This document shows positions 37,738 through 43,000 of a stretch of DNA of 64,000 nt, one piece after another (within the stretch, counting starts at the first letter, position 1; the number at the start of each line of letters is the position of its first letter). The stretch is from Palleronia caenipelagi (GTDB lineage: Bacteria > Pseudomonadota > Alphaproteobacteria > Rhodobacterales > Rhodobacteraceae): assembly GCF_007004065.1 (NCBI RefSeq), contig NZ_VFSV01000001.1:1-64000 (forward strand). The letters run 5' to 3'. The translations under genes were made by a program, and so were the position numbers. The notes beneath the pieces are model-generated. The model saw nothing but the letters and a program-made list of their open reading frames with translations. It was not told the origin of the DNA and searched no databases.

Positions 37738-37912
37738 GCTTCCGGCATTCGCCTGGTGCGCTCGCCGGTAAGCTGTTTCGGCTCATCCGAGTCGATATGT
37801 TGATCAAACAACGTTCGGAGCAGTGATCAAGGGCGTGCTGAGTAATACAGGACTTATTCTGCAGAAATACACAGATTTGTAGATGGTCCTGTGGAAAAAA
37901 TGAGGCTCAGAT

Positions 37913-38122
37913 ATGAGCAAGAAAAAGATATCAGTAATCTCTGAAAGCCGAACTGGACTGAACCAAGTGTTCGATGTTCTAGGGCAGGGTGCGGTTCGAC
38001 GCGGCGAACTGGCTAACCAAGTTGAGCGTGGTCGACACCAAGGCTACCACGTACGTCGCGTCAACGGTCATAGGGTCATCGCGTCGAACCCCGACGGTTC
38101 GACCGACAACAATCTTGGTTGA
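37913..38122 (+). CDS. Small DUF3892-like protein
   Basis: A 69-residue basic protein beginning MSKKKISV. The part GELANQVERGRHQGYHVRRVNGHRVIASNPDGSTDNNLG resembles the second half of DUF3892: a helix, a short strand pair and the closing PDG-x-x-x-NNLG motif. Function unknown. Its DNA is less GC-rich, with AAA/AGA/ATA codons unusual for neighbours, and the 90 nt before it are AT-rich, suggesting recent acquisition. A terminator ~105 nt downstream closes the unit. Confidence 0.7.
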   Translation: MSKKKISVISESRTGLNQVFDVLGQGAVRRGELANQVERGRHQGYHVRRVNGHRVIASNPDGSTDNNLG

Positions 38123-38318: not shown

Positions 38319-39581
38319 ATGGTCAGGGACAGAGAGCACAGGCTGACCGGCGCGCGGATCCGGGCGCGGCGGGCGGAGCGGCGGATGACGCAGGCCGCAC
38401 TGGCCGAGGCGGCGGGGATCTCCGCCTCCTATCTGAACCTCATCGAGCATGACAAACGGCGCATTGGTGGCGGCGTTCTGGGGCGGGTGGCGCGGGCTTT
38501 GGGCACCGATCCGGCGACGCTGACGGAGGGGCTTGGCCCGGATCTCTACGCGGCGCTGGAGAGCGTGGCCGAGCGCATCCCCTCCAACCCGCCGCCCGAG
38601 CGCGACCGGATCGATGGACTGGCCACCGATTATCCCGGCTGGGCGGCGCTGATTGCCGCGCTCGATACCCGTGTCGCGGCGCTCGAACATCGGATCACGG
38701 CGCTGGGTGAACGCATGTCCCATGACCCGGTCTTGTCCGAAGCGGTACATGACGTGCTGTCCACTGTCACCGCCATCCGCTCGACCGCCGGGATTCTCGC
38801 CGAAGACGGGCTGGATCCTCAATGGCAGGCGCGATTCCATCGCAACCTGCATGAGGACAGCCAGCGTCTGGCGGACGGGGCGCAGCGGCTGGCGGGCTAT
38901 CTGAATGTAGGGGAGGCCGCGAATTCGGACGCCGTCTCGCCACAGGAAGAGGTCGAGGCGTGGCTCAGCGCAAATGACTGGTCCTTGGACATGTCAGAGA
39001 GTTGCGGCTTGAGTGAGGCGGGAGAAACCGCTCTGGCGCGGCATACGGCGCGGGTCACAGCAGATGCAGACTGCCTGCCCGATGAGGCGCTGCGGGCGGC
39101 GCTGAAGGAGGTCGGGCTGGATCCGTTCCGCCTTGCAGACACGTTGGGCGCCCCGGTGACGCGTGTCATTCGGCGCCTCGCAGCACTCCCGGCACGGGCC
39201 ATGCCACGCCCTCTTGGCCTGGTTGAGATCGACGGGGCCGGAGCGCTCTTGTTCCGGCGTCAGGTCACAGGGTTTCTCATCCCCCGCTACGGGGCGGCCT
39301 GTGCGCTATGGCCGGTCTTCGAGGCGCTTTTAACGCCGGCCCATCCGATCCACCGGCGCTTTCGCCAGCATGGCCGCGACACGAGGCCGCTGGAGAGCTG
39401 GAGCGCGGTGGACCTTACGCGTCCGGGAGGCCTCGCCGGGCCGGTCGTGGCGCGGGCGGTGATGCTTGTCGCGCCGCTCGAAGGGGTCGCCGGGGACGGG
39501 GTTCCGGAGACGGTCGGGGCCAGTTGCGCCCTGTGTCCGGCCCCCGCCTGTCCGGTGCGCCGGGAGTCCGCAGTGCTGTGA
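38319..39581 (+). CDS. XRE/ScfR-type regulator with histidine-kinase-like helical hairpin
   Basis: A 420-residue cytosolic DNA-binding protein. An XRE helix-turn-helix lies at ~10-67 (RMTQAALAEAAGISASYLNLIEHDKRRI). Residues ~135-195 resemble a HisKA dimerisation domain: His144 in AVHDVLSTVTAIRSTAGIL sits where an H-box phospho-acceptor would be, with a second helix to ~195. The C-terminal ~180 residues match the ScfR domain of short-chain fatty-acid regulators, including FLIPRYGAACALWPVF and the closing CALCPAPACPVR cysteines. It is followed by a receiver and an SLC5-kinase gene, so a role in acetate or propionate control is likely (inference). Confidence 0.85.
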   Translation: MVRDREHRLTGARIRARRAERRMTQAALAEAAGISASYLNLIEHDKRRIGGGVLGRVARALGTDPATLTEGLGPDLYAALESVAERIPSNPPPERDRIDGLATDYPGWAALIAALDTRVAALEHRITALGERMSHDPVLSEAVHDVLSTVTAIRSTAGILAEDGLDPQWQARFHRNLHEDSQRLADGAQRLAGYLNVGEAANSDAVSPQEEVEAWLSANDWSLDMSESCGLSEAGETALARHTARVTADADCLPDEALRAALKEVGLDPFRLADTLGAPVTRVIRRLAALPARAMPRPLGLVEIDGAGALLFRRQVTGFLIPRYGAACALWPVFEALLTPAHPIHRRFRQHGRDTRPLESWSAVDLTRPGGLAGPVVARAVMLVAPLEGVAGDGVPETVGASCALCPAPACPVRRESAVL

Positions 39582-39678
39582 TCGCTCACGCGGGCGGATG
39601 AGGCTTTGACAAGGCCCCGCCGGTCTCCAATACTCGCGCCAGCCAAGAGCATGTCAGATGCAGGGAGGAGGACCCGGC

Positions 39679-40059
39679 GTGTCCGACAGCAAGCGCGTTC
39701 TCCTGATCGAGGACGAGCCCAATATCACCGAAGCGATCCGCTTCGTGCTGACCCGCGAGGGTTGGCATGTGCAGACTCATGCCGAAGGCCGGGACGCGGT
39801 CGAGACGGTGCGCGAGCGCAAGCCCGATCTGGTGATCCTCGATGTTATGCTGCCCAACCGCTCCGGGCTGGACATTCTTGCGGATCTGAAGGCCGATGCG
39901 GATCTGCGGACGATCCCGGTGATGATGCTGACCGCGCGTGGGAGCAGCCCTGAGCGGGAAACCGCACTGAGAATCGGGGCGGATTGCTTCATGACCAAGC
40001 CATTCTCCAATCGTGAGATGCTCGACACGGTGCGTAGCCTGATGGCGGGATCGCCTTGA
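39679..40059 (+). CDS. Single-domain response regulator
   Basis: A 126-residue CheY-like receiver without output domain. The acidic pocket (EDE near residue 11-13), phospho-acceptor Asp55 in LVILDVMLP, the Thr in MLTARG and the Lys in TKPF are intact. Start GTG 39679 is chosen because a strong GGGAGGAGG lies just upstream; ATG 39658 would put that site inside the gene. The stop overlaps the next start (TTGA), so it is coupled to the membrane-protein and kinase genes, the probable phosphodonor. Confidence 0.92.
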   Translation: MSDSKRVLLIEDEPNITEAIRFVLTREGWHVQTHAEGRDAVETVRERKPDLVILDVMLPNRSGLDILADLKADADLRTIPVMMLTARGSSPERETALRIGADCFMTKPFSNREMLDTVRSLMAGSP

Positions 40060-40319
40060 GCCGCGACCGTCGTCCTGCCTTTCTCGACCGCGCCCATTAT
40101 CGCCGCCGGCGCGTTATGGATGCGGCGCGGGTGCTTCCATTTGCGGGGCTGTTTTTATTTTTTCTGCCCGGCCTCTACGGCAGTGACAATCCCCACTCAA
40201 CGGCGAGCACAGGCCTCTTTCTGTTTGGCTCGTGGGCCGGCCTGATCGTTGCGGCGGCGTTCCTGTCGCGGCGTCTCGCCCGGATTGCCGAGGATGAGGG
40301 CTCCGGGCGCAAGACATGA
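40056..40319 (+). CDS. Tiny two-helix membrane protein linked to the SLC5-kinase
   Basis: An 87-residue protein starting at TTG 40056, overlapping the receiver stop and overlapping the kinase start by 4 nt. A basic N-terminus (RDRRPAFLDRAHYRRRR) precedes two hydrophobic helices (about 26-42 and 50-69) and a charged tail. Similar mini-proteins (DUF485-like in position, not clearly in sequence) accompany SLC5 transporters; a subunit role is inferred from the coupling. No family was recognised. Confidence 0.75.
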   Translation: MSRDRRPAFLDRAHYRRRRVMDAARVLPFAGLFLFFLPGLYGSDNPHSTASTGLFLFGSWAGLIVAAAFLSRRLARIAEDEGSGRKT

Positions 40320-43000
40320 CGACCTTCAATCTGCTTGTCGCTGGTTGCCTGTTCTACGTGGCCACGCTGTTCGCGGTGGCCTTCATGGCCGAACGGCTGG
40401 TGGCGCAGGGCAAGGCGCGCTGGCTTCGCGCGCCCATCGTCTACACGCTGTCCCTGTCGATCTATTGCACCGCGTGGACCTTTTACGGTGCTGTGGGCTT
40501 TGCCGCCCGGTCGGGACTCGAATTCGTGACCATATATCTCGGGCCGTCGTTGGTGATGATCGGCTGGTGGCTCCTCCTGCGCAAGCTCGTGCGGATCGGC
40601 CATCAGCAGCGGATCACCTCCATCGCCGACCTGATCTCGGCCCGTTTCGGCAAGTCCAACCTTTTGGGCGGTGTCGTTACCGTGCTCGCAGTGATCGCGG
40701 CGACGCCCTATATCGCGCTGCAACTTCAGTCGGTTGCCCTGAGCTTCACAGCCGTGTCCGGCGCGGCGGAGACAGAGCCCGACCCCGCAATCGCGATCTG
40801 GGTGGCGGGTGGCCTCGCGGTGTTTACGATCCTGTTTGGCACGCGGCGGGTGAATGTGAACGAGCGCCACGAAGGCATCGTCACCGCCATCGCCGTCGAA
40901 GCGGTGGTCAAGCTGATGGCCCTCCTGGCGGTCGGCATTTTCGCCGTCTTTGTCGTCGCGGGCGGGCCGGTGGAAACCTTCCGCCTGATCGAAGCCTCCG
41001 AGATCGCCGTCTGGGAGTTTCAGCCGGGGCGCTGGCAAGCGCTGGTCTTTCTCTCGGCGGCGGCGTTTCTCTGCCTGCCGCGCATGTTCCATGTGATGGT
41101 GGTTGAAAACGCCGATGAGCGGCATCTGGCGACCGCCTCCTGGGCGTTTCCGCTCTATCTTCTGGCCATGTCGCTCTTCGTGGTGCCGATTGCGGTGATC
41201 GGTCTCGACCGCTTGCCCGAGGGCAGCAACCCCGACCTGTTTGTTCTTACCCTGCCGCTCGCAGAGAACGCTCAGGCGATTGCTATGCTGTCCTTTCTGG
41301 GCGGGTTTTCCTCCGCGACCTCCATGGTCATCGTGGCGGCGATTGCGCTTGCGACGATGATCTCGAACCACCTTGTGGCGCCGATCTGGCTGCGGTCGGG
41401 CGCTGCGGAGGAGGGGGACCTGCGCCGCGCCGTTCTCACCGCACGGCGCGCGGCCATTGTCGGCGTCCTCGCCCTTGGCTACCTCTACTACAACCTGTCG
41501 GGCGGGGGCGCGGCGCTGGCCTCTATCGGGCTCGTGTCCTTCGCGGGATCCGCACAAGTTTTGCCCGCGTTGCTCGCCGGGATCTTCTGGCGCGGCGCGA
41601 CACGGGCGGGGGCGGCAACCGGGCTCTGCCTTGGCTTTGCGGTCTGGGCCTGGTGCCTGTTCTTGCCGTCCTTGCCGGTCGGGGAGGTGATCCCCGCCCA
41701 TGTGATGCGCAACGGTCCGTTCGGCTTAGGCTGGCTGCGCCCACAGGCGCTCTTTGGTGTCGAGGGCTCGGACCCGTTGTTGCACGGTCTGTTCTGGTCC
41801 CTCTTTGCAAACACGCTTGGTGTGGTCGGGGTTTCGCTCGGGACGATTGCGACGCCAATGGAGCGGCTTCAGGGCGCGGCGATGGTGAATGTGGATACGG
41901 TGGGGGCAGGGCCGGTGAGCTGGCGGCCGGGGCAGGCTGACAGTGAGGATCTGCTGGTGATGACCCAGCGGATTCTCGGTCACTACAAAGCGCAGGCCCT
42001 GTTTCGCAGCGCCGCGTTGAGGCAAGGCAAGACAGGCTACCTGCCGGATGCCGATCAGATTTTCCTCGACAGGCTGGAGCGGGAACTCTCCGGTGCTGTC
42101 GGGGCCGCGACGGCCCATGCAATGCTGACCCAGATCACCGGGGGAGGGGCGGTTTCGGTCGAGGAGCTGATGCGCGTTGCCGATGAAACCCAGCAGATCA
42201 TGGAGTATTCCGCCCAGCTTGAGACAAAGTCACAGGAACTGAGCCGCACCGCGGCGCGGCTCAGCGAGGCCAATGAAAAGCTTACCCGGCTTTCGGTGCA
42301 GAAGGACGCCTTCCTGAGCCAGATCAGCCACGAGCTGCGGACGCCCATGACCTCGATCCGGGCGTTTTCCGAACTCTTGCGCGACGGCGGCGAGGGCATG
42401 GCTCAGGAGGATCGCGAGCGTTTTGCCGGCATCATTTATGACGAAGCGATCCGGTTGACGCGGCTGCTGGATGACTTGCTGGATCTCGGGGTTCTTGAGA
42501 GCGGTCAGATCAGTCTTCGCCTCGATCACGTGCGGCTCGGCACATTGCTTGAGCGCGCTTTGGCGATGTCGGATCAGGCGGCACGGCTGAAGATCTATCG
42601 CCCCGGGCGCGAAGATCTGATGCTGGAAACCGATGGCGACCGGCTGGTGCAGGTGTTTATCAACCTTATCACCAACGCAGCGAAATATTGCGATGCCGAC
42701 GTTCCGCGCCTCACGATTTCGGCAAAAATCGCGGAAGGGATGGCCGAGATTGACTTCGTGGATAACGGCTCCGGCGTGGCTGCCGAAGCGCGGGAAATGA
42801 TCTTCGAGAAATTCGCCCGCGCCACGGATACGCGCGCGGCCGGTGGCGCCGGGCTGGGTCTCGCGATCTGCCGAGAGATCATGCTGCGCTTGGGCGGCAC
42901 CATCCGCTATCTGCCTGGTCAGGGCGGGGCGGCGTTTCGCCTGACTGTGCCACTCTCGCCCGGCTGGCTGGAGGACGTCACCGCCGCCGGCCGGGCGTGA
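40316..43000 (+). CDS. SLC5 sodium/solute symporter fused to a histidine kinase (CrbS-like)
   Basis: An 894-residue membrane sensor kinase. Residues ~1-500 form a sodium:solute symporter domain of 12-13 helices with motifs such as SIADLISARFGKSNLLGG and LGFLGGFSSATSMVIVA-type segments; a linker helix (~600-670) follows, then HisKA with His672 in SQISHELRTPM and HATPase with NLITNAAKY (N box), DFVDNGSGV (G1) and GGAGLGLAICREI (G2). CrbS proteins, which control acetate metabolism in Vibrio and Pseudomonas, share this plan; ligand here is inferred, not shown. It ends an operon with the receiver and mini-protein. Confidence 0.9.
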   Translation: MTTFNLLVAGCLFYVATLFAVAFMAERLVAQGKARWLRAPIVYTLSLSIYCTAWTFYGAVGFAARSGLEFVTIYLGPSLVMIGWWLLLRKLVRIGHQQRITSIADLISARFGKSNLLGGVVTVLAVIAATPYIALQLQSVALSFTAVSGAAETEPDPAIAIWVAGGLAVFTILFGTRRVNVNERHEGIVTAIAVEAVVKLMALLAVGIFAVFVVAGGPVETFRLIEASEIAVWEFQPGRWQALVFLSAAAFLCLPRMFHVMVVENADERHLATASWAFPLYLLAMSLFVVPIAVIGLDRLPEGSNPDLFVLTLPLAENAQAIAMLSFLGGFSSATSMVIVAAIALATMISNHLVAPIWLRSGAAEEGDLRRAVLTARRAAIVGVLALGYLYYNLSGGGAALASIGLVSFAGSAQVLPALLAGIFWRGATRAGAATGLCLGFAVWAWCLFLPSLPVGEVIPAHVMRNGPFGLGWLRPQALFGVEGSDPLLHGLFWSLFANTLGVVGVSLGTIATPMERLQGAAMVNVDTVGAGPVSWRPGQADSEDLLVMTQRILGHYKAQALFRSAALRQGKTGYLPDADQIFLDRLERELSGAVGAATAHAMLTQITGGGAVSVEELMRVADETQQIMEYSAQLETKSQELSRTAARLSEANEKLTRLSVQKDAFLSQISHELRTPMTSIRAFSELLRDGGEGMAQEDRERFAGIIYDEAIRLTRLLDDLLDLGVLESGQISLRLDHVRLGTLLERALAMSDQAARLKIYRPGREDLMLETDGDRLVQVFINLITNAAKYCDADVPRLTISAKIAEGMAEIDFVDNGSGVAAEAREMIFEKFARATDTRAAGGAGLGLAICREIMLRLGGTIRYLPGQGGAAFRLTVPLSPGWLEDVTAAGRA

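Follow-up and report, generated by a model that had tools for sequence, protein, structure and literature searches.

A ScfR-type transcription regulator with a HisKA hairpin, inherited with a receiver-only response regulator and an SLC5-type sensor kinase

In the Palleronia caenipelagi DNA analysed here (the window, 64,000 nucleotides), a ScfR-type DNA-binding regulator carries in its middle a helical hairpin, a HisKA domain that shares ancestry with the one in the neighbouring SLC5-type sensor kinase; no ATPase domain accompanies it. The regulator is inherited with this kinase and with a receiver-only response regulator encoded between them. The arrangement suggests that the small receiver of the kinase acts directly on the DNA-binding regulator, passing the signal to the gene switch instead of serving as one. 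With a probability of about two in three, we propose a split acetate two-component system of the CrbS kind, with the regulator as its DNA-binding output.

Architecture of the regulator and kinship of its hairpin

The regulator gene (38319..39581, on the plus strand like all features of the window given below) was delimited from its ORF, Pfam and homologues; it opens with ATG and encodes 420 aa. Upstream are a 69-aa ORF (37913-38122) and a 1229-aa ORF, the latter presumably a B12-dependent ribonucleotide reductase. The N-terminal XRE-type HTH spans residues 11-68 (38349..38522; Pfam HTH_31 11-68, and HTH_3 14-67 with E 1.1e-11 and 45.1 bits against a cut-off of 23), and the ScfR C-terminal domain spans residues 298-415 (39210..39563; Pfam ScfRs, 34.1 bits against a cut-off of 24, and a phmmer match to PrpR 6cyj). 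ScfRs is matched at E<=1 by 30/30 regulator homologues, and both it and the HTH are present in all nine homologues for which a Pfam scan was examined. No HATPase match appears at E<=1 in the full-length regulator, and HATPase_c is likewise unmatched in the nine homologues. Pfam recognises no M78/IrrE-like part in the window regulator and does so in 4/30 homologues. L241 and L240 combine HTH_3, HisKA, M78 and ScfRs in a single chain, each above its Pfam cut-off.

The C-terminal half of the regulator resembles Mycobacterium PrpR both by sequence (PDB 6cyj) and by fold (Foldseek E 1.8e-9). Within the ScfR domain, Cys328 and the C403-X2-C406-X4-C411 motif follow the pattern of the PrpR [4Fe4S] ligands, given as Cys363 and C447-X2-C-X4-C455 in the PrpR report (PMC6765138), and C328, C403, C406 and C411 are invariant in 30/30 homologues. 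To judge from its domain family, this part of the protein probably senses acyl-CoA.

Between these two domains, the AlphaFold model (mean pLDDT 83.6) places helices at residues 106-135, 137-160 and 167-200. The first is a long helix preceding the hairpin (38634..38723). The other two form the HisKA-type, DHp-like hairpin of residues 137-200 (38727..38918), which is recognised by profiles, with two homologues above the Pfam cut-off. Its His144 (codon 38748..38750) is, in alignments, the equivalent of the kinase phospho-acceptor. The initial annotation, which had read the protein as an XRE HTH, a HisKA-like hairpin at about residues 135-195 and a ScfR domain with no ATPase domain, is thus borne out by Pfam and profiles, and the hairpin itself is found at residues 137-200.

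Downstream of the regulator lies the receiver-only response regulator of 133 aa (39658..40059; Pfam Response_reg E 5.9e-28), followed by the SLC5-type sensor histidine kinase of 894 aa (40316..43000; Pfam HisKA and HATPase_c, with a match to PDB 10ED). The HisKA domain of the kinase is at 42302..42505 (Pfam HisKA E 2.4e-17). An 87-aa ORF with a TTG start (40056..40319, from the ORF list) overlaps both the receiver stop and the kinase start, so that the kinase is two genes downstream of the regulator, as annotated, if this ORF is left uncounted, and is the third ORF if 40056-40319 is counted. The Pfam SSF profile does not match the kinase at E<=1; its SLC5 label, which also came from the initial annotation, is supported because the N-terminal 510 aa match 10ED with E 6e-78, the CbrXA SLC5-STAC structure described in a preprint (PMC13022988). 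By eye, the 87-aa ORF has two hydrophobic stretches; no Pfam family matches it above cut-off, and a hydrophobic ORF of 55-140 aa occupies the same place in 63/73 named loci examined. In position and overlap it resembles CbrX, which the preprint describes as a small peptide translationally coupled to CbrA and bound by it (PMC13022988).

The HisKA likeness is borderline in the window protein alone and appears real and solid, on sequence grounds, once the homologues are included. A full-length Pfam scan of the window regulator gives no HisKA match at E<=1, and the isolated hairpin region reaches E 0.12 (12.9 bits, cut-off 26.9) against Pfam HisKA (PF00512); the NCBIfam model of the CreC kinase covers residues 121-191 with E 0.0017, far under the cut-off of that model. 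Full-length scans match HisKA at E<=1 in 2/30 homologues. With the region taken alone, HisKA is the most frequent Pfam match (18/63 homologues, the next family reaching 7/63). Two homologues, L241 (38.7 bits) and L240 (33.7), exceed the Pfam cut-off of 26.9. In the nine homologues scanned, HisKA is found at E<=0.1 in six and is unmatched in L246 and L237, which lack the His, and in L248. Divergent lineages have an almost canonical hairpin, which reads THELRTFLTSIRSFSEIL in L241 and SHELRTLLTTVRSFSEIL in L244, where the window kinase has SHELRTPMTSIRAFSELL.

Profile comparisons point to the lineage of the kinase itself. By hhalign, the hairpins align to 71 SLC5-kinase DHp domains with E 1.3e-8 and a score of 50.3, and 100 heptad-phase shuffles peak at 21.5; the alignment to 29 general HisKA domains scores 24.7, with shuffles at or below 18.2. 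When the hairpin profile is searched against its own genome, which contains 23 HisKA matches in all, three matches are obtained at E<=10: the regulator itself (1e-43), the HisKA of the neighbouring kinase (3.4e-5) and an exonuclease gene (0.17). The DHp of the neighbouring kinase is therefore the closest relative of the hairpin within the genome, a point that the initial annotation had not made. The profile similarity that the initial annotation called for is evident in these E values and in the two homologues above the Pfam cut-off. Chance resemblance to HisKA was considered as well and is ruled out by the heptad-phase and reversed controls together with the whole-genome profile scan. The third, insignificant match (E 0.17) falls in the middle of a 673-aa protein of the acs cluster (L261 9639-11660, contig 132 of the same genome) whose C-terminal domain is an exonuclease and which also has a weak PAS-like part.

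Across 289 alphaproteobacterial genomes, four of them from the family of this genome (Rhodobacteraceae), 33 have a hairpin-profile match at E<=1e-7, and 28 of these matches are the regulator outside that family. The profile also matches ORFs of 895-1012 aa in this set, the size of SLC5 kinases, with E from 2e-9 to 1e-7. In a tree of 93 DHp domains, 24 regulator hairpins are monophyletic (UFBoot 100), and the hairpins group with 34 SLC5-kinase DHps, GEN_L134 and four kinases of the same genome against 30 others (UFBoot 100); the sister group of the regulator clade among kinase DHps is not settled by this tree. Comparisons with solved structures count on the other side. Among PDB sequences the hairpin profile yields 11 matches up to E 10 with no kinase among them, the best being a BAR-domain protein (E 0.011). 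Foldseek with the region alone (pLDDT 87.9) ranks the histidine kinase VC2136 (9p6i) first, weakly (E 0.03), and VIA-align does not separate kinases (HK853, 4jav, Z 9.0; ERS1 DHp, Z 8.3) from other helical hairpins, with unrelated ones scoring up to 9.7.

Co-inheritance and conserved residues

In a sample of 198 genomes of the same family, counted as related genomes rather than as independent events, the kinase is present in 174 (E<=1e-150) and a regulator homologue in 172, at a threshold (E<1e-20) that was chosen after the results were seen and with the presence of the hairpin checked in only part of the 172. None of the 24 kinase-less genomes, 20 of them listed directly and four obtained by elimination, has the regulator at E<1e-20. 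Two kinase-bearing genomes, G023 and G147, also have no regulator at this level. A C-terminal piece of the regulator sits at a contig end in G147 (L182). In the kinase-less G157 the regulator copy is broken by two in-frame stops (L181), which is what mutual dependence of the parts would predict.

The three genes also tend to remain together. In 74/80 named loci of the family, the fetched stretch includes both receiver and kinase; in two others it ends before the kinase. Neither is near the regulator in L047, L054, L061 and L096; the kinase is found elsewhere in the genome in 5/5 cases searched (these four and L090), and the regulators of the four loci, where the kinase is not adjacent, keep the hairpin and its His. 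Outside the family, the fetched stretch contains both partners for 22/28 regulators, only the kinase for L228, only the receiver for L236 and L244, and neither for L234, L237 and L238. Homology, operon and co-occurrence together support the proposal of the initial annotation that the regulator is a DNA-binding partner joining one- and two-component signalling. A covariation analysis of 99 regulator-receiver-kinase triples (Neff 68) shows no enrichment at the expected hairpin-receiver interface, and none for the kinase-receiver pair that served as positive control.

The conservation of His144, which the initial annotation had named as a test, is complete among close homologues (30/30 and 110/110, 107 of the latter distinct) and reaches 152/155 in a wider set (152 distinct sequences; 127 from the family and 28 from outside it), a count possibly biased upward because the homologues were found with profiles that include the hairpin or with the whole protein. 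The three exceptions have Tyr (L246) or Gln (L237 and L238). In L246 (genome G017), the receiver residues are intact and the kinase is adjacent, so that this locus offers a natural test of the need for the His.

Other positions are shared with the kinase. Arg at H+10 occurs in 146/155 regulators and, in paired sequences, in 91/99 regulators and 99/99 kinases; Ile at H+15 occurs in 99/99 paired regulators and 96/99 kinases. Helix 2 is strongly conserved, with Trp169 in 109/110 close homologues and Arg172 and Phe173 in 110/110. Conceivably, these helix-2 residues mark a domain kept for its shape, a hairpin that only joins two regulator chains in a protein answering to acyl-CoA alone. This seems unlikely in view of the close co-occurrence with kinase and receiver, the helix-1 residues common to the kinase, and the His kept in 152/155 regulators. 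The Pro expected of HisKA at H+5 is absent in 155/155 regulators. This counts against mixed regulator-kinase dimers formed through the DHp domains, another suggestion of the initial annotation, which the relatedness of the two hairpins would favour but which is unsupported and highly improbable; the loci whose regulator has hairpin and His but no adjacent kinase speak neither for nor against such dimers.

The residues next to the His bear on what the hairpin does. The window regulator has Asp at H+1, and an acidic residue is found there in 121/155 regulators (117/127 within the family and 4/28 outside it), being missing in 34/155. At H+4, Ser, Thr or Asn is present in 153/155, with Ser in 107/127 of the family. 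In HisKA kinases, according to PMC3510030, the H+1 acid is needed for kinase and not for phosphatase activity, and Thr or Asn at H+4 is needed for phosphatase and not for kinase activity. Where the ATPase has been lost, the H+1 acid could thus be free to drift, as it has done here, and a receiver-facing surface might need H, H+4 and H+10. The residue pattern fits docking, phosphatase action or transfer from the receiver alike.

Two forms of the proposed output role can be weighed against these residues. In the sharper one, a true phosphorelay, the phosphorylated receiver would pass its phosphoryl group to His144, and the regulator would be a DNA-binding histidine phosphotransferase. The His kept in 152/155 regulators while its neighbours drift, the acidic H+1 in 117/127 regulators of the family and the intact chemistry of the receiver all speak for it, the receiver orthologues having the acidic pair, phospho-Asp, Lys and Thr/Ser in 103/103. 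There is also a precedent in an alphaproteobacterium, in which a His of PhyT is reported to accept phosphate from SdrG (PMC5898713). Loss of the H+1 acid need not abolish action on the receiver either, if the acid is needed for kinase and not for phosphatase activity (PMC3510030). The Tyr of L246, with receiver and kinase adjacent, the Gln of L237 and L238, and an acidic H+1 in only 4/28 regulators outside the family count against a phosphorelay, and we hold it tentatively, as something we would not quite expect to be true. Phosphorylation of His144 as such is possible, somewhat short of probable.

The other form is a docking or phosphatase reader, in which the hairpin would bind the phosphorylated receiver and perhaps dephosphorylate it, with no phospho-His. 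It would account for a phosphatase position, H+4, that is Ser, Thr or Asn in 153/155 regulators while the kinase-specific acid at H+1 is missing in 34/155; yet the H+4 residue is Ser, and not Thr or Asn, in 107/127 regulators of the family, and docking taken alone leaves the near-invariance of the His unexplained. This form is a rather doubtful one.

Paired boxes and acs

TGTAAA boxes abound in the regulator promoters of 78 named loci. As direct repeats, TGTAAA/TGCAAA boxes recur exactly 32 bp apart in 39/78 promoters, 98 bp apart in 28 and 66 bp apart in 25, and 200 shuffled promoter sets give at most two at any spacing. According to PMC10370305, a ScfR site is a pair of almost identical boxes separated by an 18-bp spacer, in agreement with a 14-bp box that recurs every 32 bp. 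In the genome of the window there are two exact box pairs, and four pairs with at most one mismatch, a count that is not significant because the reversed pattern gives six. One exact pair, on contig 132 (2536-2573), precedes acs (acetyl-CoA synthetase), which is followed by genes for a VC_2705-type sodium/solute symporter, a CBS/DUF294 protein and an exonuclease; the other (contig 112) is near ORFs without a family match.

A position weight matrix (PWM) of the operator was built from 39 regulator-promoter sites, with a 99% shuffle level of 5.2 and a shuffle maximum of 9.1. The acs site of the same genome scores 40.4. For comparison, acs genes were collected from 30 of the 172 regulator-bearing genomes, 26 of which gave acs, and from the 24 regulator-less genomes, 21 of which gave acs; loci L271, L284, L285 and L312, which are partial or at a contig start, were dropped before counting. 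The 26 acs genes were divided by hand: 13 are on a different contig from the regulator or distant from it, and 13 are at about 5-7 kb from it. Scores above 5.2 are found for 11/13 of the separately placed acs genes, for 0/13 of those at about 5-7 kb, which are on the divergent side of the regulator, and for 4/19 acs genes from regulator-less genomes; with the shuffle maximum of 9.1 as threshold, the counts become 10/13 separately placed acs genes against 2/19. A stricter pair rule retains 4/26 acs genes in regulator-bearing genomes and 1/19 in regulator-less ones. Among the regulator-less acs sites, only that of L275 (26.5) looks like a true site, and other ScfR paralogues could bind the same boxes, since 4/19 regulator-less acs promoters score too.

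The operator argument rests on the exact acs pair and on the PWM comparison with regulator-less genomes, and together these make acs a likely target of the regulator through a predicted operator, a target that the initial annotation did not name. The promoter of the window regulator itself has no good operator. No paired TTGTAAA boxes are present in the window within three mismatches, and the stretch at 37850..37903 is a weak candidate for a degenerate operator (PWM 8.5). A divergent branched-chain-type ABC transporter, for which one member per cluster was identified, adjoins the regulator in 49/68 loci, and 13/27 acs matches of the regulator-bearing sample are located on the transporter side, at a distance of about 5-7 kb from the regulator; the window locus is without this divergent arrangement.

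Proposed mechanism and comparison with known systems

In the split system proposed here, the SLC5-type kinase would sense acetate or a similar short-chain acid, by analogy with CrbS, and phosphorylate the lone receiver. This receiver is without an output domain and might then dock on the regulator hairpin as it does on the kinase DHp; such docking is expected because the hairpin presents a HisKA surface of the kinase's own lineage. Docking, with or without phosphoryl transfer to His144, could alter the binding or activity of the regulator at the paired boxes, to which the ScfR domain would contribute an acyl-CoA/[4Fe4S] signal. The DNA-binding function would then reside on the histidine-side partner and not on the response regulator. 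A role at acs would be in keeping with CrbS/R, which PMC5715377 describes as controlling acs in Gammaproteobacteria.

The boldest version of this proposal inverts the two-component scheme: through a chain of kinase, lone receiver and His144, the phosphoryl signal would come to rest on the transcription factor's own His. A kinase DHp would have been copied into an acyl-CoA-sensing one-component regulator, and outside acetate and inside acyl-CoA would be integrated at acs. This version is speculative, and we lean against it.

In textbook two-component systems the output is carried by the response regulator. Here, it appears to have been moved to a separate protein that has a kinase-type receiver-docking domain and is a probable acyl-CoA sensor. 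Such an arrangement would explain transcriptional control by receiver-only response regulators, which are often puzzling orphans, and would illustrate one way in which two-component pathways can capture one-component regulators. It also provides a candidate acs regulator for many members of the family, to the extent that a homologue is present at E<1e-20 in 172/198 genomes. The parts are known; if the mechanism holds, their arrangement reverses the usual placement of the DNA-binding output.

With the ScfR/IsaR regulators (RamB, PccR, MccR/PrpR), the window regulator shares the XRE HTH, the ScfR C-terminal domain, the [4Fe4S] cysteine pattern and the use of paired boxes, the 32-bp repeat seen here fitting two boxes and an 18-bp spacer. 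In the genomes searched, the alignment of ScfR paralogues to the regulator profile covers about positions 3-130 and 220-430 and not what lies between; unlike them, the window regulator has the HisKA hairpin in this middle part. Its orthologue is possibly Pden_1785 of Paracoccus denitrificans, a protein of the ScfR network whose gene is clustered with two-component genes; the accessible part of the report on that network mentions no HisKA domain for it (PMC10370305). Searches of the open-access PMC literature gave no description of a HisKA domain in a ScfR regulator.

With CrbS/CrbR (MxtR/ErdR), the system shares an SLC5-type kinase and acs as a likely target. CrbR, however, is a LuxR-family response regulator, according to PMC9100948, whereas here the receiver stands alone (133 aa) and the DNA binder is a separate protein with HisKA and ScfR domains.

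A kinase-like hairpin is also shared with ChpT and PhyT, which use theirs for phosphotransfer. Spo0B, in the Spo0F-Spo0B relay, is likewise a phosphotransferase of DHp type. We know of no DNA-binding or metabolite domain in Spo0B, ChpT or PhyT. PhyT is fed by the single-domain receiver SdrG and passes phosphate to the response regulator PhyR, in the account given by PMC5898713. A relay through a phosphotransferase such as PhyT is the nearest working analogue of the arrangement described here, in which the histidine protein would be the transcription factor itself.
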